DNA from: a virus
IMG/VR virus record: IMGVR_UViG_3300022214_000012
Coordinates: 1-40,021 of that record
Length of the DNA: 40,021 bases
Strand: one strand, 5' to 3'
The notes under the pieces are model-generated. The model searched no databases. It saw only the letters and a program-made list of their open reading frames with translations, and was not told where the DNA came from. Position numbers and translations under genes: made by a program. Shown piece after piece: positions 1 through 40,021 of this stretch; position 1 is the stretch's first letter, and every line of letters starts with the position of its first letter.

Positions 1-198
1 TATTTAAACTTATGGGAGGGTGGGTATAACCACGAAGAAATTCCGACATTTACAAGAGAGCCGCAGACGATGGCATCTTTGCCCGGTAATTACACACATT
101 GTTGGCCGGTATACGATTTAGCAGCAATTCTTGCGGCAGTAGAGCTGGAGCGCGCTAACATACCAATTAAGGGGCGCGCTTCAGCGCGTCCCTCTTGA
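1..198 (+). CDS. Partial cassette gene (C-terminal end), unknown function
   Basis: Open from the window edge to a TGA at 196-198, giving at least 65 residues. The frame reads YLNLWEGGYNHEEIPTF near the edge and ends KGRASARPS. The last ~13 codons run through the attC stem (153-200), as is common for cassette genes that stop inside their recombination site. A Met at 70 would give a 42-residue protein, but the frame is open further upstream, so the true start probably lies outside the window. I do not recognise the family. Confidence 0.55.
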   Translation, partial: YLNLWEGGYNHEEIPTFTREPQTMASLPGNYTHCWPVYDLAAILAAVELERANIPIKGRASARPS

Positions 199-212
199 AT
201 GACGGGTTCGAC
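153..212 (+). other. attC site 1
   Basis: R'' CGCTAAC at 153-159 and R' GTTCGAC at 206-212 flank a 14-bp imperfect hairpin (166-179 with 184-200, loop TTCA). The only unpaired stem bases are T189, T193 and G197, all on the 3' arm. One-sided extrahelical bases are a hallmark of folded attC sites. The R' belongs to the next cassette, so the two boxes here need not match. Confidence 0.88.
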
Positions 213-233
213 CCCGATACTACGGAGAGCGAT

Positions 234-524
234 ATGAAGCGAAGAATAGTTTGCGCGGCAGTAGCGTACCCCAAAAGACCAGACATCATGCTGGTGGGGC
301 CACGACACTTTGACAAAGTGATGCACGATCAATACAGCCGATTTTTCACAAGAGGAACGGCGCTTGGCGAAGAGGAAAGCGTGCAAGGGTTTGTGGATCA
401 GCACGGTAAATTTCTGACGCGGGAAGAGGCTTGGGCTGTTGCGCAAGAAGCTGGGCAGATACTGCGCAGAGTTGGTGGCGACACTACCAATGGCGGGCGG
501 CTATTCAGTGAGAACCTGTACTGA
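234..524 (+). CDS. Cassette gene: small conserved phage-type protein ending LFSENLY
   Basis: 96 residues starting at ATG 234 after the ribosome site GGAGAGCGAT. The upstream in-frame TTG at 195 lies inside attC and is unlikely. The protein opens MKRRIVCAAVAYPKRPDIML, then has GPRHFDKVMHDQY, GFVDQHGKFLTREEAW and a C-terminal GGRLFSENLY. From memory this motif set recurs in small proteins of unrelated phages, but I know of no assigned function. TGA at 522-524 lies just before R'' at 528. It is the second cassette; box complementarity (GTTCGAC with GTCGAAC) shows that gene and attC travel together. Confidence 0.85.
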   Translation: MKRRIVCAAVAYPKRPDIMLVGPRHFDKVMHDQYSRFFTRGTALGEEESVQGFVDQHGKFLTREEAWAVAQEAGQILRRVGGDTTNGGRLFSENLY

Positions 525-527
525 GGT

Positions 528-608
528 GTCGAACATTGGAGGTAAGCGGATTGACGACTAGGAGCGAAGCGACGCAGGCGGCAAGTCCGCTTGACCGTAA
601 GGTTAGGC
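528..608 (+). other. attC site 2
   Basis: R'' GTCGAAC (528-534) and R' GTTAGGC (602-608). Stem GGTAAGCGGA (541-550) pairs with 586-596, leaving only G593 unpaired on the 3' arm. The long apical part (551-585) can fold further. R'' is the exact complement of this cassette's own R' at 206-212. Confidence 0.86.
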
Positions 609-624
609 TGGTTTTGAGGTGAAT

Positions 625-1119
625 ATGAAAGAAAAAGACTTAGATTATTTTCACGGGCATGGGCGCATTGAGTACAACACGCCGGGGTGGCTTTTTACTG
701 CGCTAGATCAAGAGTTTCACTTCACCGTGGACGGCGCGGCAAGCAATGAAAACGCAAAATGTAAGCGATTTTGGAGTATTGAGGATTGCGCCCTAGCAAA
801 GGACTGGACAGATGAAGTTGTTTTTTTGAACCCTCCATACGGGAAAGGCATTACCGGGTTATGGGCAAAAAAGGCGTACATGGAAAGCAAAAAAGGCGCT
901 TCCGTGGTGATGGTTGTTCCTGTTCGTGCAGATGCTAAATGGTGGCATGACTTCGCCATGAAAGGCGAGGTAAGACTGTTCAGAAACAGGTTGAATTTCG
1001 ACAACAACCACGGCGCAAAACATTACGCACCATTCGCAACGGCTGTGATTGTTTTTCGCCCTTACCAACACCGGATTGTCTCAATGCCGGAAGTCAGGGA
1101 GCTTGGGTTTGTGGCCTAA
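625..1119 (+). CDS. Phage N6-adenine DNA methyltransferase (Dam-like, PF05869 type)
   Basis: 164 residues from ATG 625, preceded by GAGGTG; an upstream GTG at 619 is less likely. It is expected to transfer a methyl group from S-adenosylmethionine to adenine N6 in DNA. The catalytic motif is visible as FLNPPYG at about residue 71, with an early TPGWLF segment and a late LFRNRLNFD segment typical of the phage Dam group. In a phage setting such enzymes usually protect DNA against host restriction or interfere with methylation signals. TAA at 1117-1119 forms part of R'' GCCTAAC. Function assignment is by family recall, not by search. Confidence 0.88.
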   Translation: MKEKDLDYFHGHGRIEYNTPGWLFTALDQEFHFTVDGAASNENAKCKRFWSIEDCALAKDWTDEVVFLNPPYGKGITGLWAKKAYMESKKGASVVMVVPVRADAKWWHDFAMKGEVRLFRNRLNFDNNHGAKHYAPFATAVIVFRPYQHRIVSMPEVRELGFVA

Positions 1120-1178
1120 CATATCAAATTGAGGCGCGGCGCGCTTTTGCGCCGTCGCTCTCGAATGCAGGGTTAGGC
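1114..1178 (+). other. attC site 3
   Basis: R'' GCCTAAC (1114-1120) and R' GTTAGGC (1172-1178). The stem 1127-1142 pairs with 1149-1166 around a short loop. T1155, T1159 and G1163 bulge from the 3' arm with the same 4-base spacing as in attC 1 and attC 5. Confidence 0.9.
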
Positions 1179-1206
1179 TGGTTTTTTAATTACGAAGAGG
1201 TGAATG

Positions 1207-1419
1207 ATGAAATTAATAGAGGAATTACGTAAGACTGCCGATTTGGCACATGCGGTAACAGGATGCAGCTTGCGAAATCATCCATGTACTTTGGCCGCGA
1301 ACGAAATAGAACAGTTGCGTGCAGCATTAGAGCTTTATGTTAATGCAGGCTTTGGAGAAAGCACGGACTTTTATAAACAGGGCGCTGCATACTATGCCGC
1401 TGTAGAAGCTTTGAAGTAG
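1207..1419 (+). CDS. Cassette gene: 70-residue protein of unknown function
   Basis: Starts at the second ATG of an ATGATG pair, with better spacing to AGAGGTG than the first at 1204. The protein MKLIEELRKTADLAHAVTG is mostly helical, with a mid segment NEIEQLRAALELYV resembling short phage proteins of the pattern I-x-x-LR-AALE. It has no signal peptide and no membrane segment. TAG at 1417-1419 is followed by R'' GCCTAAC at 1421. The leader (GTTAGGCTGG, T-rich stretch, GAGGTGAATGATG) is shared with the cassettes at 625 and 1787. Confidence 0.75.
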   Translation: MKLIEELRKTADLAHAVTGCSLRNHPCTLAANEIEQLRAALELYVNAGFGESTDFYKQGAAYYAAVEALK

Positions 1420-1420
1420 T

Positions 1421-1544
1421 GCCTAACATCAAGGTAACAGGCAGGCCGACTAAAACACTTAATACGGAGAAATGAACTATGCAAAACCAGAAACCTAAAT
1501 TCAAAACACTTATCGGCCTGTCCTTGTTGACCGTTGGGTTAGCC
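1421..1544 (+). other. attC site 4, long loop carrying the start of the next gene
   Basis: R'' GCCTAAC (1421-1427) and R' GTTAGCC (1538-1544). The stem 1433-1449 pairs with 1513-1532; T1521, T1524 and G1529 bulge from the 3' arm as in the other sites. The loop (1450-1512, 63 nt) contains a ribosome site GGAGA and the ATG at 1479 of the downstream lipoprotein gene. The next R'' (GGCTAAC, 1689) complements this R', so the assignment does not rest on the hairpin alone. Confidence 0.82.
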
Positions 1545-1694
1545 GGATGCGATCCAACAGTTGATGGGTGGCAGGTAATAGCAACGCAGAAATTTTGCGA
1601 ACAGCATGGCGGAATTGACCACATGTCTACTGTATACGGAGTTGTAGCTACATGCAGGGATGGAACTATTTACACTCCGAAACGAGGCGGCTAA
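1479..1694 (+). CDS. Small lipoprotein, start codon supplied by the upstream attC loop
   Basis: 71 residues. The N-terminus has basic residues (KPKFK), a hydrophobic stretch LIGLSLLTVG and the lipobox LAGC, so signal peptidase II processing and a lipid anchor are expected. The mature part is about 48 residues with two cysteines and no recognised domain. The recombination point G^TTAGCC falls within the codons for Val-Gly-Leu-Ala: the signal segment is encoded by the attC of the preceding cassette, while LAGC onward belongs to this cassette. The mature gene would thus have no start codon of its own. It could serve in surface modification or exclusion; that is inference. Confidence 0.8.
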   Translation: MQNQKPKFKTLIGLSLLTVGLAGCDPTVDGWQVIATQKFCEQHGGIDHMSTVYGVVATCRDGTIYTPKRGG

Positions 1695-1756
1695 CATCTA
1701 GCTTGAGGGGCTGGACGGGCTTTATCGGCCAGTCCCTCTCGAAGCGTGGGTTAGGC
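1689..1756 (+). other. attC site 5
   Basis: R'' GGCTAAC (1689-1695) and R' GTTAGGC (1750-1756). Stem 1701-1714 pairs with 1729-1745; T1733, T1737 and G1741 bulge on the 3' arm. R'' complements the R' at 1538-1544. Confidence 0.9.
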
Positions 1757-1786
1757 TAGATTTTGATAAATACTAAGAGGTGAATG

Positions 1787-2062
1787 ATGAATGCCAAAAC
1801 AATCGCGGAAGATAAAGAAAATTTTGCGTTAAACGCAGCAATTCAGTTACTGGTAAATCAAGAAACAAGAAAGTTGCGAGAAGAAAACTTCCAACAAATG
1901 ATTCTAATAGAGCAAATGATGTCAGCATTGTGTCGTGCTCCGAAATATCACAAGGATGTTTGCGATAATCGCGATAGAAAATTCATCCGGGAAACTTTCG
2001 ATAAAGTAAAGAAGAGCAATGTTTGGCGTGAACATGTAAAGGGTTTAGTCGGCGATGCCTAA
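1787..2062 (+). CDS. Cassette gene: 91-residue helical protein of unknown function
   Basis: Start chosen at the second ATG of ATGATG, 6 nt from GAGGTGA. MNAKTIAEDKENFALNAAIQ is followed by a charged helical stretch (ETRKLREENFQQMILIEQMM), probably a coiled coil, and a basic tail. The two Cys residues are far apart. TAA at 2060-2062 is within R'' GCCTAAC. The cassette leader matches those at 625 and 1207. No family recognised. Confidence 0.75.
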   Translation: MNAKTIAEDKENFALNAAIQLLVNQETRKLREENFQQMILIEQMMSALCRAPKYHKDVCDNRDRKFIRETFDKVKKSNVWREHVKGLVGDA

Positions 2063-2143
2063 CATGAAATTAAGCGGGCGCGAGGAGAAACCATGATCGA
2101 AGAAACCACGCTGGCCGCGCTCCGCTTGAATGTAGAGTTAGCC
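2057..2143 (+). other. attC site 6, loop carrying the start of the next gene
   Basis: R'' GCCTAAC (2057-2063) and R' GTTAGCC (2137-2143). Stem 2069-2082 pairs with 2116-2131; T2121 and G2128 are the only unpaired bases, on the 3' arm. The loop (2083-2115) holds AGGAG at 2083 and ATG 2093 of the Lar-like gene. Confidence 0.87.
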
Positions 2144-2350
2144 GCCTGCCCTTGCGGAAAGACCCCGACAGATGTTGATATTTATGACGCATGCCAGGGT
2201 GGAAAATGGGCGAACGTGCAGCCGAATTGTTGCGGTGAATGGATGATCGAGTTTCGCACCAATTACGAGGCATTGGATTCTGTTGAATGTAAGCGACTGG
2301 CAATCGAGGCATGGAATAGTGCGCCGAGGGCGGCTAACGAACAGAAATAA
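2093..2350 (+). CDS. Lar-like restriction alleviation zinc-ribbon protein, fused in frame to attC-encoded start
   Basis: 85 residues. CPCG near residue 18, a later NCCGEW pair and the closing AIEAWNSAPR match the layout of Lar-type proteins (Cys pair, Cys pair, A-x-x-WN-x-R), which modulate type I restriction. The start codon and ribosome site lie in the loop of the upstream attC. Residues 1-15 (MIEETTLAALRLNVE) come from that attC, and LAACPCG onward from the cassette itself beginning TTAGCC. There is no in-frame ATG in the cassette before the Cys motifs, so expression depends on the neighbour. TAA at 2348 lies inside the next attC. Confidence 0.78.
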   Translation: MIEETTLAALRLNVELAACPCGKTPTDVDIYDACQGGKWANVQPNCCGEWMIEFRTNYEALDSVECKRLAIEAWNSAPRAANEQK

Positions 2351-2396
2351 CCGGCTCCGCGCTTTTGCGGAGTCCGGGTTGATTGACGGGTTGTGC
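2332..2396 (+). other. attC site 7
   Basis: R'' GGCTAAC (2332-2338) and R' GTTGTGC (2390-2396). Stem 2347-2360 pairs with 2367-2383; T2373, G2377 and G2381 bulge. A second GTT (GTTGATT at 2378) was excluded because it forms the L' arm. R'' complements the R' at 2137. Confidence 0.88.
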
Positions 2397-2420
2397 GTCA
2401 ATCTTTCAACGGAGAACGAT

Positions 2421-2630
2421 ATGCAACCAAAACTAACGAAGCTGTGGATAGGGCAACAAGGGGATGCGGTAACTGGCAAGCAAACCATACGGGCCGATTT
2501 TAGTAATGACCGACACTACGAAGTGGTGATAAGCCATCCAGCAAACGCAGAGCAGGTTGCGCGTGCATTACTACAAATGTCGAGCATGATACGGCTAGAC
2601 CCGCTCTTGACGCACAACATATCAAGCTAA
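2421..2630 (+). CDS. Cassette gene: 69-residue protein of unknown function
   Basis: ATG 2421 follows GGAGAACGAT, the same leader type as the cassette at 234. The protein MQPKLTKLWIGQQGDAVTG continues with a beta-like segment and a helix ANAEQVARALLQM, and ends in THNISS. The last residues are encoded within R'' GCACAAC and the attC arm, with the stop at 2628-2630 inside attC. No signal peptide. Family not recognised. Confidence 0.72.
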   Translation: MQPKLTKLWIGQQGDAVTGKQTIRADFSNDRHYEVVISHPANAEQVARALLQMSSMIRLDPLLTHNISS

Positions 2631-2675
2631 GGGGTCGCACGATTTTGTGCGATCCGCTTGAGCGCAGGGTTGGGC
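2612..2675 (+). other. attC site 8
   Basis: R'' GCACAAC (2612-2618) and R' GTTGGGC (2669-2675). Stem 2626-2640 pairs with 2647-2663, with T2653 and G2660 bulged and one G/G mismatch. R'' exactly complements this cassette's R' GTTGTGC, an unusual box kept matched within one cassette. Confidence 0.88.
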
Positions 2676-2698
2676 AACATGACTAGAGAGGAAAGACA

Positions 2699-3073
2699 AT
2701 GGAACAACTGATACTGCATCTGTTTGGCGACTACATCACGCAAACAGACTGGATGGCGACGAATAAGACGAAGCGCACGACAATAGCTGTGCTGCACGCG
2801 GCTGTGTATTCACTGCCTTTTTTGCTGCTCTGGCCTTCGCTGACGGCGCTGGCGGTGATTTTCGCAACACATGCTGTTATTGACCGCTACAGGCTGGCGC
2901 GTTTCGTGGTATTTGCAAAAAACTGGACAACGCAGCCGGGTTTGCAATGGGCAGACTGTAACGCCACAGGCTACCACAAGGACACTCCGGCATGGCTTGC
3001 GGTTTGGTTGCTGATCGTGGCAGACAACGCGATGCATCTGGCAATTAACTACGCGGCGCTGCGGTGGCTCTGA
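2699..3073 (+). CDS. DUF3307-like membrane protein
   Basis: 124 residues from ATG 2699 (GAGGAAAGACA upstream). It begins with HLFGDYITQTDWMATNKTKR, then two hydrophobic segments around residues 30-62, HAVIDRYRLARF, a soluble middle, and a C-terminal hydrophobic helix. The D-Y-x-x-Q-x-D-x-M start and H-x-x-I-D-R-Y-R motif are characteristic of DUF3307 proteins, frequent on phages and without an established biochemical role. TGA 3071-3073 precedes R'' GCCCAAC (3078), which complements the R' at 2669. Confidence 0.85.
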   Translation: MEQLILHLFGDYITQTDWMATNKTKRTTIAVLHAAVYSLPFLLLWPSLTALAVIFATHAVIDRYRLARFVVFAKNWTTQPGLQWADCNATGYHKDTPAWLAVWLLIVADNAMHLAINYAALRWL

Positions 3074-3077
3074 TGGT

Positions 3078-3135
3078 GCCCAACATCAACATAACCGGCG
3101 GCTGAAAGCCGTCCGCGTTGATGGCAGTGTTAGAG
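3078..3135 (+). other. attC site 9
   Basis: R'' GCCCAAC (3078-3084) and R' GTTAGAG (3129-3135). Stem 3091-3102 pairs with 3108-3122, loop TGAAA; T3112, C3116 and G3120 bulge from the 3' arm at the canonical spacing. Confidence 0.88.
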
Positions 3136-3159
3136 CGCGGTTTACTAAGGAGAAGAATC

Positions 3160-3411
3160 ATGGAAAGAAACAAAATAATAGAACTGGCGCAAAAGAACGG
3201 CGCGACAATTTGGGCTGGCAAATCCCCTGGAACAATCATATATGAAGGAACCGGAGGGATTACTTTTGAGGTGTTGGAGCGAACAGTAAAAGAGGCTGTT
3301 GCGGCAGAACTCAATACTTGCGTGATGATATGCGACGACATTGCAAGAAACGGGAAGGGCGGCGCTCCAACTTGTGTCCGTGCATTGCGCGAGCGCTCTA
3401 ACATGATATAG
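3160..3411 (+). CDS. Cassette gene: 83-residue protein ending inside the core's terminal repeat
   Basis: ATG 3160 after AAGGAGAAGA. MERNKIIELAQKNGATIWAG continues with a compact alpha/beta-looking sequence; Cys at CVMICDD and PTCVRALRER. I do not recognise it. The reading frame crosses R'' GCTCTAAC (3395-3402) and stops with TAG at 3409-3411, six bases into the terminal hairpin (…SNMI). The final two codons are therefore supplied by the inverted repeat of the phage core. GCGCTCTAAC at the end complements GTTAGAGCGC at the start (3129-3138) over 10 bases. Confidence 0.75.
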   Translation: MERNKIIELAQKNGATIWAGKSPGTIIYEGTGGITFEVLERTVKEAVAAELNTCVMICDDIARNGKGGAPTCVRALRERSNMI

Positions 3412-3473
3412 GCGACAAGACTTTTCGTTACCAGTGTCGCCTATATCGTGAAGTAATTCGTAAGCTGTTGATT
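3396..3473 (+). repeat. Left terminal inverted repeat of the phage core, attC-linked hairpin
   Basis: R''-like CTCTAAC (3396-3402), AT, then a perfect 13-bp hairpin: GATATAGGCGACA (3405-3417) with TGTCGCCTATATC (3435-3447), loop 17 nt. A 19-nt spacer and GTTGATT (3467-3473) follow. The same 78-nt layout occurs in reverse orientation at 39843-39920. Segment 3400-3429 is the exact reverse complement of 39887-39916. Unlike attC 1-9 the stem is perfect and has no bulged G, so it is not an ordinary attC. There is no T-run, so it is not an intrinsic terminator. Confidence 0.85.
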
Positions 3474-3704
3474 TTATTAAGTGCGAAATTTATAGCGCAA
3501 CCTAAAAAATAACGGATGGAAGTTAATGTATAACTTTAACTTGCGTATTTTTTTGGTGTAGTGGTAGTATGTGAACTTAGGTATTCGTAACTGAAAACCT
3601 GTTGGCAGATCATTCTGGTAGCTCCAGATAGATTGGGGGTGGTTCCAGACCACCATCCCCAGCCGACTTTAATAAAAAAGGTCTTTGCTTGCTGGAGAGT
3701 GCGA
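3474..3704 (+). other. Leader region of the core: possible promoter and hairpin
   Basis: No gene. A weak promoter candidate is TTGCGT (3541-3546), 18-bp spacer, TAGTAT (3565-3570). A hairpin at 3633-3662 has GGTGGT pairing ACCACC around TCCAG and an outer GGG/CCC after a 3-nt bulge. It sits shortly before the first core gene and may be a leader structure. D-arm-like and T-arm-like stretches are present but do not make a tRNA. Confidence 0.3.
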
Positions 3705-16516: not shown

Positions 16517-16816
16517 ATGGCTAACAAAGGCGGGCAAGAAGGTAACAATAACTACACAAAAGGAGCAATCTTTAACGATGCTCTAAGGCGCGCTATTACT
16601 CAAGACGATGGCAAGCGCATAAGGGCTGCTGCGGAGAAGTTGCTAGACTTGGCTGCTGACGGTACACCTTGGGCAGTAAGGGAGCTTGCAGACCGTACAG
16701 ACGGCAAGGCGGCTATGTCTGTTGCGCTTAGTGGTGAACTAGCTGTTAAACGTGCCGAAGACCTAACAGACGATGAACTCGCAGCCATTGCTTTCGCCGC
16801 AAATAGCCGCAAGTGA
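16517..16816 (+). CDS. Putative terminase small subunit
   Basis: 99 residues. MANKGGQEGNNNYTKGAIFN, ALRRAITQDDGKRIRAAAEK, WAVRELADRTDGKA, LTDDELAAIAF. The G-N-N-N…K-G start, AIKE-x-x-DR-x-DGK middle and DLTDEELAAI end occur in small proteins immediately upstream of phage large terminases, usually annotated as DNA-packaging or small terminase. It would bind the pac site. Overlaps the large subunit by 44 nt. Assignment rests mostly on position and recalled motif. Confidence 0.72.
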   Translation: MANKGGQEGNNNYTKGAIFNDALRRAITQDDGKRIRAAAEKLLDLAADGTPWAVRELADRTDGKAAMSVALSGELAVKRAEDLTDDELAAIAFAANSRK

Positions 16817-18203
16817 ACTGTTACGGCGCAGGGTTGCTAGGCAATCACTGCTAGACTTCACGCTGTACACAAATCCATCCTATCAAGTAGCTGACCATCA
16901 CAGACTTATAGCTGACAAGCTTGAAGCTGTTGAACGTGGAGAAAACAAGCGTTTGATGATTACGATGCCTCCGCGCCACGGTAAGAGCGAATTAGCGTCT
17001 AGACGATTCCCGGCTTGGTTTATTGGTCGCAATCCAGACAAGCAGATCATAGCTGCATCGTACAATTCAGACTTGGCGAACGACTTCGGCAGGGAAGTAC
17101 GAAACATCGTAAGCAGTCCAGAATTCGGGAATCTTTACAAAACATGCCTATCTGCTGACTCAAAGGCTGCAAACAGATGGCACACTGATAAAGGGGGTAT
17201 GTATGTTGCGGCTGGCGTTGGGACTGCTATTACTGGCCGTGGCGCTGATATACTTCTTATTGACGATCCATTTAAAGACCGTCAAGAGGCTGATAGCGAA
17301 ATCACACGGCAAAGGGTGTGGGATTGGTACACGTCTACTGCATACACTCGTCTTATGCCTGGAGGGGCCATTATCGTCATTAATACTAGGTGGCATGATG
17401 ATGATTTATCTGGGCGTTTATTAGCAGAACAAGAAACAGGTGGCGACAAATGGGAGTTATTGAGCTTGCCAGCACTTAATCAGGCAGGCGAACCACTTTG
17501 GCCTGAATGGTATCCAAAAGAACGGCTAGAGCAAATACGCGCTGTTTTGCCTGCTAGAGACTGGAATGCTCTTTACCAGCAAAATCCTATCCCAGATGAC
17601 GGTGATTACTTCAAAGCTAATTGGTTTGGTGAGTATGAAGAATTGCCAGAGAATCTCAGGTATTACGGAGCAAGCGATTATGCCGTAACTGATAATGGTG
17701 GAGATTACACAGAGCATGGAATAGCTGGAATAGATGGATCAGGAAACATTTACATTGCAGACTGGTGGAAAGGTCAAACAACTTCCGATGTATGGATTGA
17801 CAAGAAATGCGACCTGATTATTAAATACGCGCCGCATTGCTGGTTTGGTGAAGCTGGCCCGATACGCCGGGCAATAGAACCTTTTCTGATGCGCAGGATG
17901 CAAGAGCGAGAAGCATATTGTAGGATTGAGTGGTTAGCATCTATTAGTGACAAGCCCAGCCGTGCTAGACCTATACAAGCAATGGCAAGCATGGGCAAGG
18001 TATTTTTCCCAAAGAATGCAGTATGGAAAAGCGAATTAATGATACAGTTATTGCGTTTCCCGGCTGCCAAGCATGATGACGGTGTAGACGTAATGAGTTT
18101 GTTTGGTAGAGGTATGGAGTTTATAAAGCCGCCAAAGATGAAATTGAATGTTGAACCTGTCAAGCAACCATACTACAACCACAATCAAAGCTGGATGAGA
18201 TGA
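16773..18203 (+). CDS. terL: Terminase large subunit (packaging ATPase/nuclease)
   Basis: 476 residues. ATPase: Walker A PPRHGKSEL at about 66-74, Walker B ADILLIDDP at about 158-166 with a following TRWHDDDLSGRL coupling region. RNase H-like nuclease: YGASDYAVTDNGGDYTEHGI at about 297-316 with catalytic Asp, and HDDGVDVMSLFG at about 433-444 carrying the last acidic residues. It pumps DNA into the prohead through the portal and cuts concatemers, probably by headful given the P22-like portal. The start at ATG 16773 gives a normal N-terminus. Confidence 0.95.
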   Translation: MNSQPLLSPQIAASELLRRRVARQSLLDFTLYTNPSYQVADHHRLIADKLEAVERGENKRLMITMPPRHGKSELASRRFPAWFIGRNPDKQIIAASYNSDLANDFGREVRNIVSSPEFGNLYKTCLSADSKAANRWHTDKGGMYVAAGVGTAITGRGADILLIDDPFKDRQEADSEITRQRVWDWYTSTAYTRLMPGGAIIVINTRWHDDDLSGRLLAEQETGGDKWELLSLPALNQAGEPLWPEWYPKERLEQIRAVLPARDWNALYQQNPIPDDGDYFKANWFGEYEELPENLRYYGASDYAVTDNGGDYTEHGIAGIDGSGNIYIADWWKGQTTSDVWIDKKCDLIIKYAPHCWFGEAGPIRRAIEPFLMRRMQEREAYCRIEWLASISDKPSRARPIQAMASMGKVFFPKNAVWKSELMIQLLRFPAAKHDDGVDVMSLFGRGMEFIKPPKMKLNVEPVKQPYYNHNQSWMR

Positions 18204-18313
18204 TTGCTTGTAATATTAAAATATGCTAATATTACGAATAGCTAATGAATAGATTAAACAATTATGTCGAAAGACGTAATCCCTCAACTCAATATGCCGA
18301 GAGGCATTAGGAG
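18204..18313 (+). promoter_or_regulatory. Promoter plus twin GNRA hairpins before the structural gene at 18320
   Basis: Promoter candidate TTGCTT (18204-18209), 17-bp spacer, TAATAT (18227-18232). Two tetraloop hairpins follow: ATGTC-GAAA-GACGT (18264-18277) and ATGCC-GAGA-GGCAT (18294-18307). The latter ends one base before AGGAG (18309-18313). Confidence 0.55.
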
Positions 18314-18319
18314 AAAATT

Positions 18320-19090
18320 ATGATTTTGAATTCAAATGTACGCAAGCTTCAAGTTGTACTTACCACGGCAAAGACAACTGCTGATATGTCGGTTATGGTT
18401 GACTACACGGATTCGGTAGGAGAAACGAAAATTGACGATATGCAGATTTCAAGCACTAACGGAACAACTGCATCTGATATTTGTTTTGCTCCAGAGATAG
18501 GTTCTAAGCGAGACATCAAATCCATCCAGATACACAACAAAGATACCGCATCAAAGATTGTTCAAGTAAGCCTTGTTGATAACGGAACTGCTAACAGGAT
18601 CGCATCCGCCACTTTGCAAGTAGGAGATACGCTTGGTTACACAGATGGCAATGGCTGGTATGTGATGGATGTAAACGGCAATAAGAAATCAACCTCAACT
18701 ATCGCTGGCTTGCTTTCAACGTCACCATCTACCGGGATTGGATATGCGACTGGTGCTGGAGCTACTGTAACTCAGATTACAAACCGCTCAACTGGCGTAA
18801 CGATTAATGCGATATGCGGAACGATTCAGACAGACACTACGTCTCTGGCAGCTGGTGCAAGTGCTGAATTTACAGTAACCAATAGTTCTGTTGCTATCGG
18901 TGATGTGATTGTATTGGCACAACGCTCAGGCTCTAGCAACGTTGCAGGGGTGGCTGGTGTTACTCACGTGTCTGTTGTAACGGTAGCTGCTGGCTCGTTT
19001 ATCGTATCTGTGGACAATAAATCAACAACCACTGCTGAAACTGGCGCAATAATTATCAACTTTGCAGTTGTGAAAGCTACTAACTCGTAA
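18320..19090 (+). CDS. Putative virion surface protein, shares a domain with the long tail fibre
   Basis: 256 residues. N-terminal beta-rich domain (MILNSNVRKLQVVLTTAKTT … GYTDGNGWYVMDVNGN, 1-125) resembles the start of the 987-residue fibre. From about residue 138, GYATGAGATVTQITNRSTGV, a second beta domain closely parallels the fibre's C-terminus (GYTTGSGGTVTQITSRTTGV). Rich in Ser/Thr/Ala/Gly, no enzymatic motif. Lies between terminase and portal behind its own leader. Likely decorates the capsid or acts as a fibre. Confidence 0.65.
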   Translation: MILNSNVRKLQVVLTTAKTTADMSVMVDYTDSVGETKIDDMQISSTNGTTASDICFAPEIGSKRDIKSIQIHNKDTASKIVQVSLVDNGTANRIASATLQVGDTLGYTDGNGWYVMDVNGNKKSTSTIAGLLSTSPSTGIGYATGAGATVTQITNRSTGVTINAICGTIQTDTTSLAAGASAEFTVTNSSVAIGDVIVLAQRSGSSNVAGVAGVTHVSVVTVAAGSFIVSVDNKSTTTAETGAIIINFAVVKATNS

Positions 19091-19389
19091 TGAAAACAGG
19101 TACAGTTGAACTAGGCAACGCCTCTTTGTATTTGAGCTATTCTCAAGTAGTAAAGCCAAATCAAAGAGGATTCGCCAGAGAGATAACAGAGTTTGGCGTA
19201 CCTGAAGAACATCGAGGAAAAGGCGAAGGAACGAAGCTACTAGAAGCGGTATGCGAACAGGCAGATGACGAAAAGATATTGTTATTGCTGATTGCTGATA
19301 ACGTAAGACTTGCAACGTTCTATGCTAGACATGGATTTAAGGTAATACAAGAAACACCGATGTTAATGGCAAGGAGTCCATTAGCATAA
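19090..19389 (+). CDS. GNAT family N-acetyltransferase
   Basis: 99 residues, short for GNAT. EITEFGVPEEHRGKGEGTKL is the acetyl-CoA pyrophosphate loop (V-x-x-x-x-RGKG-x-G), then LLEAVCEQADDE, and NVRLATFYARHGFKVI with the conserved N…FY…GF. It transfers acetyl from acetyl-CoA to an amine; substrate unknown. Placed in the structural operon (TAATG overlap with 18320, 36 nt before the portal gene), so it may modify a virion protein or act on the host late. Confidence 0.85.
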   Translation: MKTGTVELGNASLYLSYSQVVKPNQRGFAREITEFGVPEEHRGKGEGTKLLEAVCEQADDEKILLLLIADNVRLATFYARHGFKVIQETPMLMARSPLA

Positions 19390-19402
19390 CGAACATTCCT
19401 AA

Positions 19403-19421
19403 CGCAGTGATGCGCCGGAGG
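19403..19421 (+). promoter_or_regulatory. GNRA hairpin attached to the portal ribosome site
   Basis: CGCA-GTGA-TGCG (19403-19414) then C and CGGAGG (19416-19421), with ATG at 19426. One of five such leaders before head genes. Confidence 0.6.
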
Positions 19422-19425
19422 ACAA

Positions 19426-21795
19426 ATGAAAGAAGACAAAAAAGAGTTGAGCATCGTAGAGCTTGCGAAGAAACGTTTCGAGCAAGCCAAAGACGCAAGT
19501 TCTACGACAAGGCAGCAGGCAATCAATGACACCAAATTTGCAATGGGTGACAGCGATAATATGTGGCAATGGCCTGAAGATATTTCAAATGGACGGAAAG
19601 GCGATAGGAAAATCTGCCTGACTGTCAATCTCACAGCTCAACACTGCAACCAGATTATCAACGAGATAAAGCGAAGCCGCCCTTCGTGCAAGGTAAACCC
19701 AACAGACGATTATGGCGACAAAAAGACCGCTGAAATATTAGCCGGTTTAATCCGCAACATCCAAGCTTCTAGCTGTGCCGATGACGCTCACGACATAGCT
19801 GCTGAACATGCTGTATATGGCGGTGAAGGATTCTGGAGGTTTATCACAGAGTACGAATCGCCATCAAGTTTTAACCAAGTCATCAAGATCAAATCTTGCC
19901 CAAATCCTCAACTAGTATACATTGACCAGTTCGCTAACGAGCCAGACAAGTCGGATGCAGAATGGGGTTTTGTATTTGAAGACATTCCAAAGGAAGAGTT
20001 TGAAGACGAATATCCAGACATTGATCCTATAAGTTGGGAGTCGGACAGTAGCGGTTGGGTATCGAAAGAAACACTTCGTCGCGCTGATTATTACTATGTT
20101 GAGTATATCGCTGACAAAGCATTGCTGCTTGAGGATGGTTCCTCTATGCTTGAAAGCGAACTTACCGAAGAATTGCAACGCGATGGAATGGTAATCACAA
20201 GTCTTATCGACGGTCAGCAATTCAACATCATCAAAGAGCGCGCAACGCAAACAAAGCAATGGTATTGGTGCAAGCTGGTGGGCGGGCATGACAAGCCACT
20301 AGAGAAGGTTAAGTGGTTGGGTGACTATCTTCCTATTGTATCGGTAGTTGGGAAAGAGCTGAACGTCAACGGGGAAATAATTAAGAAAGGTATCGTAAGA
20401 GACCTGAAAGACCCTGCGCGGATGGCTAACTACTCGTTCAGCGAGACAGTTCAGACATTGGCATTGCAGAACAAAATCCCGTACATGGCCGCTGCTGAGG
20501 CAATCAAAGGATATGAGACGCAATGGGGCAATGCGAATAGTTCAAACGATGCTTATTTGCCATACAATGCCTATGAAGACGGTAATCAATTGCCACGTCC
20601 AGAACGCCAGCAACCGGCCACGATGCCAGTGGCGCAAGTAAACCTATTGCAACTGTCAATTGAGCAGATGAGAGGTGCGTCCGGGCAACAGAACGCTAAC
20701 TTCGGCATCAAGTCCGAAGCGGCAAGCGGAGTAGGAATCCAACGGTTAAAGGCTCAGGGAGAGATTGCAACATTCCACTTCATTGATAATCTTGCAAGAG
20801 CGTTAAGACTCGAAGGCAGGATTCTGATTAACCTTATCCAGAAATACTACGACACAAAACGAGTTGTGCGGGTATTGGGACTCGACGGAAAAGAGCAAAA
20901 TGCAGTGCTCGATCCGAACATGCAACAGCCTTACACCGAAGAACGCACGAGCATGGAAGATATTCAAAAGATATTCAATCCAACGCTTGGGGCTTATGAC
21001 GTTGTAATTGATACAGGCCCATCCTATCAAACCCAACGCCAAGAGGCTTATGCGTCGATGACAGAGATAGCCTCACGGAATCCACAATTCATGAGTATTG
21101 CCGGTGATTTGGTGTTCAAAGCCGCCGACTGGCCGCAAGCCGAAGAGATAGCTAAACGCATGGAAAAGACACTTCCACCTGAATTGAGGGATGAGAAACA
21201 AGGCGGAGCAGAGCAGAGGCTTGCCCAGATCACTCAAGAACACCAGCAAATGGCTCAACAGATGGATATGCTATCCCAACAGCTCCAAGAGGCTCAGGCG
21301 AACCTACAGCAAGCTGAAAGCGGTGTGCAAAAGTCTCAGATGGAGCTTGAAGTCAAGATGCGTACTGCTGAACTCGATGCGGCGATGCAAGAAAAGAAAA
21401 TGCTCCAAGAAGCAGAGCTAAAACAGCGTCAAATGATGCTTGATATGGACATGCAGCGCGAGAAAATGGCTATGGATATGCAATTAGCGCGTGAAAAGGC
21501 TGAAAACGATGCTCAGATGCTGGTTTATAAGACAGAATTAGACGCGGCGAACGCTGAAAAACAGATAAAACTCAAGTCTGGGCTAGATATTGCTGGGAAT
21601 ATGGCTAAATCTCACCAAGAAAACTGTGCGAAAGTGCAAATTAACGAGGATAACAACGATACAAAGCGTGATATTGCAGAGTTGGACGCTTTCGTTAAGC
21701 TTGAATCAATCGGGATGCAAAACGAGAAACTGGCGACCGATGTAAACGCAGATTTAAAGGAAGATATTGCCGAAGATAAAGGCACAAAAGAGTAA
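19426..21795 (+). CDS. P22-like portal protein
   Basis: 789 residues, somewhat longer than P22 gp1 (725). Core features: DNMWQWPEDI, RKICLTVNLTAQHCNQIINE, EAASGVGIQRLKAQGE, LARALRLEGRILINLI, FNPTLGAYDVVIDTGPSYQT, typical of the P22 portal family. The C-terminal 200 residues are a Met/Gln/Lys-rich coiled coil (QEHQQMAQQMDMLSQQLQEA onward), comparable to the helical barrel of P22 portal. Forms the dodecameric ring through which TerL packages DNA and to which the gp4 homologue binds. Confidence 0.93.
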   Translation: MKEDKKELSIVELAKKRFEQAKDASSTTRQQAINDTKFAMGDSDNMWQWPEDISNGRKGDRKICLTVNLTAQHCNQIINEIKRSRPSCKVNPTDDYGDKKTAEILAGLIRNIQASSCADDAHDIAAEHAVYGGEGFWRFITEYESPSSFNQVIKIKSCPNPQLVYIDQFANEPDKSDAEWGFVFEDIPKEEFEDEYPDIDPISWESDSSGWVSKETLRRADYYYVEYIADKALLLEDGSSMLESELTEELQRDGMVITSLIDGQQFNIIKERATQTKQWYWCKLVGGHDKPLEKVKWLGDYLPIVSVVGKELNVNGEIIKKGIVRDLKDPARMANYSFSETVQTLALQNKIPYMAAAEAIKGYETQWGNANSSNDAYLPYNAYEDGNQLPRPERQQPATMPVAQVNLLQLSIEQMRGASGQQNANFGIKSEAASGVGIQRLKAQGEIATFHFIDNLARALRLEGRILINLIQKYYDTKRVVRVLGLDGKEQNAVLDPNMQQPYTEERTSMEDIQKIFNPTLGAYDVVIDTGPSYQTQRQEAYASMTEIASRNPQFMSIAGDLVFKAADWPQAEEIAKRMEKTLPPELRDEKQGGAEQRLAQITQEHQQMAQQMDMLSQQLQEAQANLQQAESGVQKSQMELEVKMRTAELDAAMQEKKMLQEAELKQRQMMLDMDMQREKMAMDMQLAREKAENDAQMLVYKTELDAANAEKQIKLKSGLDIAGNMAKSHQENCAKVQINEDNNDTKRDIAELDAFVKLESIGMQNEKLATDVNADLKEDIAEDKGTKE

Positions 21796-21796
21796 C

Positions 21797-21826
21797 TTGA
21801 CAAATATTAGATTAATCTGATATTCT
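21797..21826 (+). promoter_or_regulatory. Promoter candidate before scaffold gene
   Basis: Perfect TTGACA (21797-21802), 18-bp spacer, TATTCT (21821-21826). It lies 60 bp before the scaffold gene and could boost scaffold and coat synthesis. Confidence 0.5.
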
Positions 21827-21862
21827 AATGTACAGCTAATAGTGGCTTGCACTATGTCCTAA

Positions 21863-21880
21863 CGCTTTTAAGCGCCGGAG
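21863..21880 (+). promoter_or_regulatory. Hairpin attached to the scaffold ribosome site
   Basis: CGCT-TTTA-AGCG (21863-21874) then C and CGGAG (21876-21880), ATG at 21887. Same layout as at 19403; here the loop is not GNRA. Confidence 0.55.
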
Positions 21881-21886
21881 AATGAA

Positions 21887-22702
21887 ATGAACGACCAAGT
21901 AACTGAAACACAAGTTGAGCAACCTGCAGTATCGGTTGATGCAAGCGAAGTAGAAAAGGTATCTGCACCAGAACAAAACGCAGAGACTACTAGCCAAGAG
22001 ACTGAGGGTGGCGAGGAAAAACAAACTCAGGAAGATGAGAAAACGTTTACTCAAAAAGAGCTAGACGAAATCATTCAAAAACGAATCAGAAAAGCAGAGC
22101 GTGTAGCAGAGCAAAGAGCGTTAAAAGCGTATTCCGAGAAACTTGAGGCAATGCAAAAACCTCGTGAACCGGAACCTGCAAAATCTCCTTACGGAAAGCC
22201 GACAAGCGCGCAATTTGGCGAGAATATTGAGGCTTATGTCGAGGCTGTTGCAGAATGGACAGTTAAGCAAAAAGAACTGGAAAACACAAGGCGAGAAATA
22301 GCGTTGCAAGATGCTGAACGTAACCGTCAAGCAGACAAACTCTATTCCGAAGCTGAAAAGATTCCTGGCTTTGATGTGGATGCATTTGAGTCGTCACTAA
22401 CTCCAGCGATTGCAGGGGTTATCATGACAAGCAAGATTGCACCTAAACTCATGGCATACATTGCTAGTCATCCTGAAGATATTGCGCATATCGCTGATTT
22501 ACACCCTGCGAGACAAGCTGCTGAAATTAGTAAACTGGAAGATAAACTTTCAGATACGAAAAAAGTAGCAAACACATCAAAGGCTCCAGCACCAATGAAG
22601 CCTGTTGGAAGTAAAGGTGGGCAAGTGCATAAACCAGTAGCAGAGATGTCACTTGCTGAACTTAGGAAATTTGAAGAGACGCGAGGATCGAAGTTTATCT
22701 GA
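21887..22702 (+). CDS. Scaffolding protein
   Basis: 271 residues between portal and coat, the P22 gp8 position (gp8 is 303). Acidic, Gln/Glu-rich disordered N-terminus, then KTFTQKELDEIIQKRIRKAE, a long charged helix, AQFGENIEAYVEAVAEW, and a short C-terminal region AELRKFEETRGSKFI. The FTQ-x-E-L-D-x-I-I-x-x-R segment is a common phage scaffold motif. It directs assembly of coat protein into proheads and leaves before DNA entry. Confidence 0.85.
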   Translation: MNDQVTETQVEQPAVSVDASEVEKVSAPEQNAETTSQETEGGEEKQTQEDEKTFTQKELDEIIQKRIRKAERVAEQRALKAYSEKLEAMQKPREPEPAKSPYGKPTSAQFGENIEAYVEAVAEWTVKQKELENTRREIALQDAERNRQADKLYSEAEKIPGFDVDAFESSLTPAIAGVIMTSKIAPKLMAYIASHPEDIAHIADLHPARQAAEISKLEDKLSDTKKVANTSKAPAPMKPVGSKGGQVHKPVAEMSLAELRKFEETRGSKFI

Positions 22703-22719
22703 GCAATTTAAAACTTATA

Positions 22720-22737
22720 CGTCGTGAGACGCTAGGA
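22720..22737 (+). promoter_or_regulatory. GNRA hairpin attached to the coat ribosome site
   Basis: CGTC-GTGA-GACG (22720-22731), C, then TAGGAG (22733-22738), ATG at 22745. The coat gene is expected to need the highest translation rate of all. Confidence 0.6.
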
Positions 22738-22744
22738 GAAAAAA

Positions 22745-23953
22745 ATGAGTAATACATTAGCAACGACCACACTGGTCAGTAACAAAGCACTTATGGTATT
22801 GCAGAATCTTCTGCCATTTACCAGCAACGTAAGCCGGGCTTATGAACCTGAGCTTCAAATGGGTACTTACGCACACGGCAACACTGTGAACATTAAACGC
22901 CCGGCTAAATACCAATATCGTGCTGGCCCCGTATCTGTTCCACAAGCGACCACTGAAAGCACCATTCCTTTGACACTTTCACAAGGAGGTTGCGATTTGC
23001 AATTCACCTCTAACGAGCGCACCACTGGCCTTTCGATGCAATCTCTGGAAGAAAAGCTGATTTCAGCAATGATTCCTATTGCAAGTGAAATTGAGCGTCA
23101 AGGTCTGGAACTGGCAAGGTTGAGCGTGTTTAATGCACTCAATACTGCCTACACAATCCCTACCACGCAAGATTTGGCTGTAGGTGCTGCAACGTCTCTT
23201 GGCCAACGCCTCGATGAAATGTGCGCCCCTGATGGTGATGGCCGTCGTTTCCTTACCATGTCACCATCGCTGAATGCAGGTATGATTCGCGGTCTTGCCG
23301 GTCTGCAAAACTCTACTGCTAAAATCGGTAAGCAATATGAAACCGGCTTGATGCAGAATGCACTTGGCCTGAACTATCACAAGTCGCAACTGATCGCCAC
23401 CCATACTAACGGAGCTGCCACTGCTACCAACATCAACGGTGCTAACCAGACTGGCTCTACAATTACTGTAGTTGCTGTTGCTGCTGGTACGCTGACTAAG
23501 GGCACTCGAATCACTCTTCCGGGTGTTTATGCGGTGAACTCTGTAACTGGTCAATCTACCGGCGTACTGGCTGATTTCATCACTACCGCCGACGTTGCTT
23601 TGGGTGCCACTTCAATCCCGATTAGCCCATCTATCGTGACTACCGGCCCGTTCAAGAACGTATCCGCATCTCCGACTACGGCACAGCCTTACGTTATCTT
23701 TGGTGCTGCTTCGACAAGCTACAAATGTTCCCCTGCTTACCATCGTGATGCGTTTACTTTCGCCTCTGTACCGATGGACACCAGCATGAAGAACAAAGGT
23801 GTGGATGTAAAGCAGCAATCGGAAAACGGCATCACAATCCGCGTTATTGACGGCTACGATTTCACTGGTGATAAATCGGTGATGCGTCTTGACGTTCTGA
23901 CCGGGTGGGCTGCTACTTATCCTGAACTCGCATGTATCTATGCATCCACCTAA
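22745..23953 (+). CDS. Major capsid (coat) protein, P22 gp5-like
   Basis: 402 residues (P22 coat 430). MSNTLATTTLVSNKALMVLQ, FTSNVSRAYEPEL, KRPAKYQYRAGP, LSMQSLEEKLISAMIPIASE match the P22-type coat family, an HK97-like fold. A Gly/Thr/Ala-rich insertion region around residues 215-300 (NGAATATNINGANQTGST) is consistent with the I-domain-like insertion. The C-terminus is SVMRLDVLTGWAATYPELA. Codon choice here looks more uniform than in orphan genes. Forms the icosahedral shell with the scaffold. Confidence 0.92.
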   Translation: MSNTLATTTLVSNKALMVLQNLLPFTSNVSRAYEPELQMGTYAHGNTVNIKRPAKYQYRAGPVSVPQATTESTIPLTLSQGGCDLQFTSNERTTGLSMQSLEEKLISAMIPIASEIERQGLELARLSVFNALNTAYTIPTTQDLAVGAATSLGQRLDEMCAPDGDGRRFLTMSPSLNAGMIRGLAGLQNSTAKIGKQYETGLMQNALGLNYHKSQLIATHTNGAATATNINGANQTGSTITVVAVAAGTLTKGTRITLPGVYAVNSVTGQSTGVLADFITTADVALGATSIPISPSIVTTGPFKNVSASPTTAQPYVIFGAASTSYKCSPAYHRDAFTFASVPMDTSMKNKGVDVKQQSENGITIRVIDGYDFTGDKSVMRLDVLTGWAATYPELACIYAST

Positions 23954-23974
23954 TACTAAACAAGGAGAAATAAC

Positions 23975-24685
23975 ATGAGTATTACATTCTTAAAAGATTA
24001 CAAAGAGTTTTTGACAGGCACCACTGCAACGCTTCCAGACGTGACGGAAGCCGCGCTGATCGCCCAAGGTCTTGCTACTGCACTCGGCACGACTTCGGAG
24101 CCTATGAAGATTCCCGGTCTGGTTCAGTTCGCAAGCCAAGGCGGTAACGTATCCTTGGTTAATGCTGGCGGCGAGACTACCGCAACTTACTATCAAGGCC
24201 CGTTGCGTCTGCCTTGTATCAGCTTGGGTTCTGCTGCTTTGACAGGGTATGAAACCAACGGAACGGCTCCAGTAGCAGGGACGATGTACCTGACCGAGAT
24301 TCACGTACCTTACAAGCAAACTTGGACTGGTATCGGTAAGCTCAACGGCACTGTAGTTGGCACGGACAACCATCTGGTTGCATTGTACGGCTCTAACGGT
24401 GCATTGCTGGCTAACTCTGCTGTTGCCGGTGTATTGGCTGCTGATGCATCTCTGATGCAGAACATTGCCTTTACTGCACCGATTACCCTGCTGCCGGGGC
24501 GTTACTTCCTCGGTGTTCAGTCTAACGGCACTACTGCTACCTTGCGTCATCTGGTAACTGTCAATGGTGCAAACGCCTCGACTGGCGCACAAGCCGGAAC
24601 CTTCGGTACTGTACCTGCAACGCTGACTACTGTTCCTATCACGTTTACGAACGCGCAAGGTGTTATAGCTCAGTTGTACGTATAA
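23975..24685 (+). CDS. Putative capsid decoration or head fibre protein
   Basis: 236 residues directly after coat (AAGGAGAAATAAC, ATG 23975). A short N-terminal helix (FLKDYKEFLTG) is followed by an all-beta, Gly/Thr/Ala-rich body: NGGETTATYYQ-like strands, YLTEIHVPYKQTWTGIGKLN, LPGRYFLGVQSNGTTATLRH. Such beta-sandwich proteins after coat genes commonly bind the capsid surface. No enzyme motif. A terminator follows, so coat plus this gene form a high-level unit. Confidence 0.6.
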   Translation: MSITFLKDYKEFLTGTTATLPDVTEAALIAQGLATALGTTSEPMKIPGLVQFASQGGNVSLVNAGGETTATYYQGPLRLPCISLGSAALTGYETNGTAPVAGTMYLTEIHVPYKQTWTGIGKLNGTVVGTDNHLVALYGSNGALLANSAVAGVLAADASLMQNIAFTAPITLLPGRYFLGVQSNGTTATLRHLVTVNGANASTGAQAGTFGTVPATLTTVPITFTNAQGVIAQLYV

Positions 24686-24693
24686 TGTAACAC

Positions 24694-24735
24694 CCTCCGG
24701 CTAACGTTGTGAAACGCTGCCGGAGGTTTTCTTCT
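24694..24735 (+). terminator. Intrinsic terminator with nested GTGA hairpin after the coat unit
   Basis: CCTCCGGC (24694-24701) pairs with GCCGGAGG (24719-24726), followed by TTTTCTTCT. The loop contains a nested ACGTT-GTGA-AACG hairpin (24704-24716), like those before the portal and coat genes. The next gene's ribosome site (GGAGG) follows at 24736. Confidence 0.75.
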
Positions 24736-24745
24736 GGAGGTTGCT

Positions 24746-25444
24746 ATGGCGACAGCCTTGACCATTATCACTGATGCGCTTCTGGAAATTAACGCCGCTG
24801 CGACTGGAGAAACAATCCCTGCCGCAGAAGCAAATGACGCATTAAGAGCATTAAACCGTCTAATGGAAAAGTGGAGCAATGCAAGAGCATTCGCTTACTT
24901 TGCTGATGAAGTATCACTAGCACTTACCGGACAAGCATCATTCACAGTTGGCCCGACAGGTGATGTTGTTGACCTTCGGCCTATTTCAGTTGAATCAGCC
25001 ACAGCCGTACTAGATAACGTGACTTATCCTGTATCTGTGTACAATGTTCAACAATGGGATTCAATTCCAGATAAGACTACTACCGGAACTATCCCGCAAG
25101 CAATTTACTACGAAGGCTCAATGCCTAACGGGACAGTAAAGGTTTATCCGGTTTGTACTGGAAGCACGATCAAAATCAGGATTCTTAACGTTGTAAACTC
25201 GTTTGCGACTTTGGGAACTACTCTTTCAATGCCACCCGGCTACGAAGAAGCACTGATTAAAAATTTAGCAATCAACATAGCTCCTCAATACGAGATAAAG
25301 GATATTTCACCTATCACAATACGAGAGGCTAAATCAGCACTTGCTTATATAGAACGCACTAACACGGTGATTCCGAAGCTCTCGCTTGATTCGAGACTGC
25401 CGGGAATAGGCAGTAACATGAGTTCTGCTTTAAACAGGATGTAA
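24746..25444 (+). CDS. P22 gp4-like head-tail adaptor
   Basis: 232 residues (P22 gp4 166). TALTIITDALLEINAAATGE, PAAEANDALRALNRLMEKWS, then a beta insertion and GYEEALIKNLAINIAPQYE, REAKSALAYIERTN. The I-x-x-AL-x-x-I/L…A-L-x-x-LN-x-M…W start and PPGYEEAL-x-x-NLA motif define this adaptor family. It binds below the portal, plugs the packaged DNA and carries the gp10 hub. Start chosen by GGAGG 6 nt upstream. Confidence 0.9.
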   Translation: MATALTIITDALLEINAAATGETIPAAEANDALRALNRLMEKWSNARAFAYFADEVSLALTGQASFTVGPTGDVVDLRPISVESATAVLDNVTYPVSVYNVQQWDSIPDKTTTGTIPQAIYYEGSMPNGTVKVYPVCTGSTIKIRILNVVNSFATLGTTLSMPPGYEEALIKNLAINIAPQYEIKDISPITIREAKSALAYIERTNTVIPKLSLDSRLPGIGSNMSSALNRM

Positions 25445-39575: not shown

Positions 39576-39793
39576 TGGAAATCATTCTCGCTTTATTGCT
39601 TGGCGCTGCTGGTGGATGGTACGCTCACACGCCAGACAAATTCGACTGCAAAGACAATGCGCTTATAATCACAAGCTGCCCTGAACTAACACCTCAAACT
39701 GACCCTACATTCGGAGCTACTATTCTGAAATTGCAGGAAGTAGGTGGAATATACAGAGAATGCAGAGCTTCATGTCTTAATGTAAAGCATTAA
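39575..39793 (+). CDS. o-spanin-like (Rz1-position) protein
   Basis: 72 residues, TAATG overlap. Hydrophobic N-terminus EIILALLLGAAGGWYAHT but no lipobox Cys at its end, so classical lipoprotein anchoring is not visible. Four Cys follow (FDCKD, SCPEL, RECRASC), with TPQTDPTFGATILKLQEVGG and IYRECRASC, motifs I recall in Rz1-position proteins of phages. If an o-spanin, anchoring would differ from lambda Rz1. Confidence 0.6.
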   Translation: MEIILALLLGAAGGWYAHTPDKFDCKDNALIITSCPELTPQTDPTFGATILKLQEVGGIYRECRASCLNVKH

Positions 39794-39842
39794 GTTACAT
39801 CTGCTGATTTTTAGGTTGTATTATAAAGTTACAGCATTGCAG

Positions 39843-39920
39843 AATCAACAACTTGCAAATCATCTTCCGATATAGGCGACATTGAAAACGAAAAGTCTTG
39901 TCGCCTATATCATGTTGTGC
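39843..39920 (-). repeat. Right terminal inverted repeat of the phage core, attC-linked hairpin
   Basis: Reverse copy of the repeat at 3396-3473. In + coordinates: AATCAAC (39843-39849), 19-nt spacer, GATATAGGCGACA (39869-39881), 17-nt loop, TGTCGCCTATATC (39899-39911), AT, GTTGTGC (39914-39920). Both repeats are 78 nt. The outer 30 nt (39887-39916) are the exact reverse complement of 3400-3429; the inner spacer differs mainly by transitions. The short gap 39794-39842 between the spanin gene and this repeat holds no gene. Confidence 0.85.
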
Positions 39921-40021
39921 GTCACCAGTTGGTCACGCCGTCCTACCCAATGACATTCAAGACATGTCGATTCTGAGTTCGCGTCTTGCGTCTTTACGCT
40001 GTGGCAGTAATGGTAACCAGT
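39905..40021 (-). CDS. Partial reverse-strand cassette gene (C-terminus) or non-coding cassette start
   Basis: On the - strand 38 codons are open from the window edge to a TAG (39905-39907), ending THNMI inside the hairpin. This parallels the left cassette gene, which ends SNMI at the same point of the left repeat. Cys/His residues (HYCHSVK … TCLECHW) suggest a zinc-binding end. The R'' box would be GCACAAC. The + strand has a competing open frame, so the orientation is not proven. Both runs end at the window edge. Confidence 0.45.
   Translation of the reverse strand, partial: TGYHYCHSVKTQDANSESTCLECHWVGRRDQLVTHNMI

Follow-up and report, generated by a model that had tools for sequence, protein, structure and literature searches.

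Two integrase-less integron platforms in a P22-like phage genome and their possible use of a host integrase

The stretch of DNA analyzed here (the window) is the entire IMG/VR record IMGVR_UViG_3300022214_000012, 40,021 nt in length, and it contains a P22-like phage core bordered by integron-type gene cassettes. An array of attC-delimited cassettes (array A) occupies its left end, and the start of a second array (array B) lies at its right end. Judging from sequence comparison, this phage likely carries two integrase-less integron platforms, and its cassettes would be traded by an integron integrase (IntI) of the host acting in trans. Each platform would consist of an attI site, the intI promoter region, and the first intI codons, anchoring an attC array. 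Nearly all cassette genes in such phage arrays are inverted relative to the bacterial arrangement.

An earlier note, made from the sequence alone, had described ten attC-delimited cassettes, nine of them complete, flush against a P22-like core, and this was borne out by two covariance models, with the junction at 3402/3403. Model R1 was built solely from the attCs of another phage, G001, and model R2 from bacterial integron attCs and the class 1 aadA1 site only. R1 detected 8 of the 9 window attCs at E values from 3.7e-10 to 0.0024, the remaining one having E = 1.5, and found nothing comparable between 3403 and 40021. R2 detected all nine (E 2e-12 to 9e-5). The start boxes (GTTRRRY) were complementary to the end boxes (RYYYAAC) in all nine complete cassettes, as the note had stated, and the sites thus show the paired R''/R' boxes and hairpin of attC. 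The absence of an integrase, also noted earlier, extended to the whole record: a search of ten viral records with arrays, the window included, found no tyrosine recombinase (PF00589), and intI in cis is reduced to a truncated start. With nine attCs, array A is a cluster of attC sites lacking integron integrases (CALIN; at least two attCs, intI not nearby).

The array edges were marked by a common element. In a self-BLAST of the window, 3400-3539 had an inverted copy at 39777-39916 with 77% identity, highest at the array edge. At the right window edge an end box, GCACAAC, is joined to the same element on the minus strand, and therefore a second array starts there. Different cassettes join this element, always precisely at AAC, in window arrays A and B and in phages G010 and G006, the G006 copy being a diverged form. 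The G010 cassette end is followed by ATGATATAGGCGACAAG and then by the element seen in the window. By its sequence, the junction element is an attI site. Both homology and a matrix score place attI beside the array, and 8 of 10 phage array ends ranked within the top 0.4% of GTT sites scored against a bacterial attI matrix. The attI1 core is GTCGCC-N-G/TT, and the core of the window attI is similar. Since attI-type elements stand at both edges as inverted copies, the window would hold two integrase-less attI platforms in opposite orientation. The earlier note had correctly recognized an integron-type array on a phage core, and missed the duplicated, inverted attI with truncated intI as well as the inverted genes. 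An exact 23-base attI-hairpin pattern had no match in IMG/VR, and the window junction element had none among 50,697 deposited phages. Termini of a transposon or transposable phage were also considered; inverted repeats are present, but without transposase or target-site duplication (edge flanks GCGCTCT vs GTGCGTC), and attI explains them. A degenerate terminal attC, or a product of top-strand recombination, was dropped as an explanation of the cassette end, since attC polarity indicates attI.

Bacterial attI sites are built alike, with an inverted repeat followed by a core such as CGCCGCCTAATTTACG/TT or GGTGTCTACTTAACG/TT. The element matched the bacterial attI-intI region by BLAST (E 1e-5), and beyond attI it aligned with the host promoter region as far as the start of intI. 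There, the host sequence reads AACCTAAAAAAACACGG ATG GAG TTT AAA GTG (IntI) and the phage sequence AACCTAAAAAATAACGG ATG GAA GTT AAT GTA TAA; intI remains beyond this truncated start were not found in the phages. Matches to the element came from 6 of the 399 bacterial genomes searched (E 2.5e-4 to 5e-8), at seven places in all. An intact IntI lay directly downstream at three of these, and an intI cut after 7-16 codons at three more; the seventh (L142) had no IntI context of that kind. The three truncated loci, each in a different bacterial genome (L144:7374, L145:5011, and L146:1169), have attI and the intI promoter with adjoining attC sites, and one of these genomes, G017, contains a complete integron elsewhere in addition. 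In chromosomes as well, integrase-less attI platforms may behave as a mobile unit. Site attC w0 of the window is about 90% identical to bacterial attCs, and a full intI was present in 20 of the 26 bacterial genomes having this attC type. A broader attC pattern retrieved 46 loci in GTDB genomes, and the pattern of attC w7 retrieved none there. From this site similarity, the host is probably of betaproteobacterial type.

From attI to attC the polarity follows the canonical pattern, and genes inside the cassettes read toward attI rather than away from it, as integron genes would. Under the same attC model, 35 of the 41 decidable phage cassette ORFs lay on the model strand and 6 on the opposite one, compared with 8 and 72, respectively, of 80 bacterial integron cassette ORFs (P = 1e-16). 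Both models agreed on this: R1 matched the class 1 aadA1 attC on the strand opposite to the gene (44.6 vs 4.3 bits), and R2 matched 9 of 9 window attCs on the minus strand, with the genes on the plus strand, while it matched aadA1 on the strand of its own gene. In a consensus comparison, the reverse complement of a G001 attC was nearly the same as the bacterial consensus. The one-sided attC bulges pointed out in the earlier note are real and mark attC polarity; by eye, the nine window folds have their single L-box bulge at the aadA1 position. A deposited phage attC cluster, MW202573 (L135, 1860-4122), likewise has genes inverted relative to attC polarity.

Searches with attC patterns and with the junction element, together with DnaC-like and terminase relatives, brought up other array-bearing phages in IMG/VR. 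In G001, two oppositely oriented arrays lie among phage genes; G009, whose large terminase subunit (TerL) is 82% identical to that of the window, has an array alongside; and arrays were also found in G010, G003, G004, G006, and G007. In G004, which has a 127-bp direct terminal repeat, the array is internal (about 10.5-18.6 kb), and the rest of the record includes genes for phage head, amidase, and replication functions. The earlier note had not decided between a phage carrying an array and a phage inserted into one; because relatives hold such arrays internally, the array belongs to the phage. The isolates P26218 and EBPR podovirus 1 and the record MW202557 had no such attCs.

Three window attC bodies (58-75 bp) were 93-100% identical in G010 with different genes attached, and other phage pairs behaved likewise. 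The identity between window 528-608, 2332-2396, and 2612-2675 and G010 48349-49839 stops at the AAC and GTT boxes, an observation relevant to how gene and attC get joined. One cassette gene was common to G003 (2449-2736) and G004 (17583-17867), with 84% DNA identity. The spacing from attC to attC had a median of 229 bp in phages, shorter than the 478 bp of bacteria. As for content, the methyltransferase, phrog_839, and DUF3307 cassette genes of the window have homologs in many unrelated phages, and PHROG matches were obtained for 4 of 20 other phage cassettes, in a scan that covered phage cassettes only. G010 also has a DNA methyltransferase cassette, and the G009 array contains a large cassette-borne ORF (309 aa) with a by-eye resemblance to a phage DNA-modifying glycosyltransferase.

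Table 1. Features of the window. Strands of attC sites refer to attC polarity.
Feature	Position	Strand	Evidence or remark
Array A: 1 partial leading cassette, 9 complete cassettes, 9 attC sites	1-3402	genes +, attC polarity -	
attC w0	154-212	- (canonical strand)	R1 40.4 bits on +; R2 59.9 bits on -
Cassette gene, phrog_839 family, 96 aa	234-524	+	E 3.1e-30; homologs in 1318 phage records
attC w1	528-608	-	R1, R2; body 97% identical in G010, attached gene different
Cassette gene, Dam-type DNA N6-adenine methyltransferase	619-1119	+	PF05869 E 5e-25; phrog_111
attC w2	1115-1178	-	R1, R2
Cassette gene, 71 aa	1204-1419	+	ORF; no family match in Pfam-type and PHROG scans
attC w3, long form, 123 bp	1422-1544	-	R2 40.8 bits
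Cassette ORF, 71 aa, start within attC w3	1479-1694	+	ORF
attC w4	1689-1756	-	R1, R2
Cassette gene, 92 aa, product unassigned	1784-2062	+	ORF
attC w5	2058-2143	-	R1, R2
Cassette ORF, 85 aa, Lar-like zinc protein by eye	2093-2350	+	sequence; no match in family scans
attC w6	2332-2396	-	R2; 58/58 bp identical in G010, attached gene different
Cassette gene, 69 aa, product unassigned	2421-2630	+	ORF
attC w7	2612-2675	-	R2; 93% identical in G010, attached gene different
Cassette gene, DUF3307 membrane protein, 124 aa	2699-3073	+	PF11750; phrog_6676 E 1.6e-42
attC w8	3078-3135	-	R1, R2
Cassette gene adjoining attI-A, 83 aa	3160-3411	+	ORF
Putative attI-A: inverted repeat and core GTCGCCTATATCATG/TT read on -	3400-3453	-	homology, attI matrix
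Promoter-like TTGATT-17-TATAGC at intI promoter position	3468-3496	+	sequence; alignment with host intI region
Truncated intI start ATGGAAGTTAATGTATAA (MEVNV, then stop)	3516-3533	+	alignment with bacterial intI
P22-like packaging and head module (TerL, portal, coat)	16773-25444	+	family matches
Second copy of promoter and intI-start remnant	39777-39862	-	self-BLAST, alignment
Putative attI-B, inverted relative to attI-A, core GTCGCCTATATCATG/TT read on +	39863-39916	+	self-BLAST, alignment
First part of array B: tail of a cassette (end box GCACAAC) next to attI-B; remainder beyond contig	39917-40021	-	

The phage core starts at about 3.6 kb and includes a P22-type portal, coat, TerL, and head closure, as well as replication, holin, and endolysin genes. 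Its P22-type portal, coat, and head-closure proteins (PF16510 E 9e-164, PF11651 E 1e-23, and phrog_578) identify the structural module of a P22-like podovirus. The phage integrase expected of a temperate P22-type phage was not found in the window, a record that may be incomplete. A 72-bp repeat with 81% identity lies within two structural genes (18737-18808 and 36806-36877), and Rfam gave no match.

We propose that the phage would supply attI and attC, and that the chromosomal IntI of the host would act on them in trans. Folded single strands arising in phage replication could serve as the IntI substrate, with cassettes inserted or removed at the phage attI. Canonical recombination uses mainly one attC strand, and for this reason the recombinogenic strand would be the coding strand in these phages. 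Since the cassette genes point toward attI, their expression would probably start at phage promoters located distally in the array and not at an integron Pc promoter. In G010, a promoter-like repeat, TTGCA..TATAAT..TTCTTAAGT, stands right before the first cassette (L038 minus strand, ~7945-7905), and it appears again after the attI region (L038 minus strand, ~4262-4217). The cassettes would deliver small accessory genes of phages, among them genes for DNA modification that could act against host restriction. If this is true, phages without an integrase use the gene-capture machine of their hosts to shuffle accessory and counter-defence genes. More tentatively, we see a real possibility, short of a probability, that phages have a cassette economy of their own: a pool of gene-inverted cassettes with largely phage genes, apart from the bacterial pool, moving among unrelated phages through phage attI sites and powered by host integrases. 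Such a separate pool, if true, would bear on the origin of cassettes and on the joining of gene and attC.

Several points weigh against the proposal of two platforms served by a host integrase. Recombination of these sites by IntI is inferred, and the host is named from site similarity only. Homology to attI is clear in the window, G010, G006, and G001, but weaker in G004 and G009, and the attI matrix gives no support for G003 and G008. Total stem asymmetry in minimum-energy folds is noisy and gives the phage sites no clear polarity. One cassette gene is shared by G003 and G004, but turnover of the arrays was not seen directly. Array B is known from 105 bp only, and the distal ends of both window arrays fall outside the record, because of which the promoter claim rests on G010.

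The arrays could instead be fossils, in which a host integron fragment with attI, truncated intI, and cassettes was gained by illegitimate recombination and then inherited without exchange. The truncation of intI and the existence of integrase-less attI loci in bacterial chromosomes would fit such a history, and Qi et al. favour illegitimate recombination at phage boundaries (PMC9892861). We regard it as unlikely, since the same attI bears different cassettes in window arrays A and B, G010, and G006, a single capture would have preserved the canonical gene orientation, and the attC bodies are intact and 93-100% identical across phages.

Arrays at both contig ends with inverted flanking repeats could also suggest a prophage, or an element bounded by inverted repeats, sitting inside a chromosomal integron of the host, to which the arrays would then belong. 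This is very unlikely: arrays are internal in other phages, including G004 with its terminal repeats, and G001 and G010 approach the case of a complete genome from this lineage in which phage genes flank the array on both sides. Moreover, neither integrase nor transposase was found, the two edges show no target-site duplication, and the gene orientation is unlike that of host integrons. Entry of normal cassettes through the unusual (top) attC strand, leaving them reversed at a secondary site in the phage, would account for the end box, rather than the start box, abutting the phage element in the gene direction. It is most improbable, because insertion by either strand keeps the relation of gene to attC, which here is itself inverted in each cassette, and because the element resembles a canonical attI. 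Although both contig ends lie within arrays, an assembly chimera has almost no likelihood, because the window has this junction with its element twice, the viral record G010 has it independently, and other phages have internal arrays.

The association of phage and array was treated as unprecedented in the earlier note, and this does not hold, because phage-borne attC clusters were published in 2023 (Qi et al., PMC9892861). That study described CALINs and integrons in phages, including MW202573, TJE1, P12002L, and PH101, and demonstrated that phage attCs are substrates of IntI1 (PMC9892861). Those CALINs resemble the window in having attC arrays without intI in phage genomes and DNA methyltransferase cassettes; however, the illustrated ones have about 2-4 sites with the phage attI unassigned, attI being reported in prophage M16-3 (PMC9892861), whereas the window has long, paired arrays at putative attI sites with truncated intI. 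We found no mention of the opposite gene orientation in the text of that paper (PMC9892861), though MW202573 shows it. The attI junction with truncated intI, the inverted cassette genes, and the missing recombinase go beyond the published phage arrays. Sedentary chromosomal integrons of Nitrosomonadales-type and related bacteria (Gallionellaceae, Thiobacillus, Methylophilus, and Methylobacter) have a near-identical attC type and a homologous attI-intI promoter region, but they retain intI, longer cassettes, and canonical gene orientation (72 of 80). The chromosomal integrase-less attI loci (G017 contig 48, G083, and G270) share attI, the promoter, and an intI cut after few codons, followed by attC sites; they differ in being chromosomal and in having canonical cassette genes. 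The class 1 integron of plasmid R100 has an attC of the same structural type at aadA1 (R1, 44.6 bits), but possesses intI1 and has its gene on the opposite strand relative to attC. Orientation is also atypical in certain Treponema integrons; there intI is flipped and the cassette genes still read away from attI (PMC3607928), whereas in the window the genes within the cassettes are flipped.

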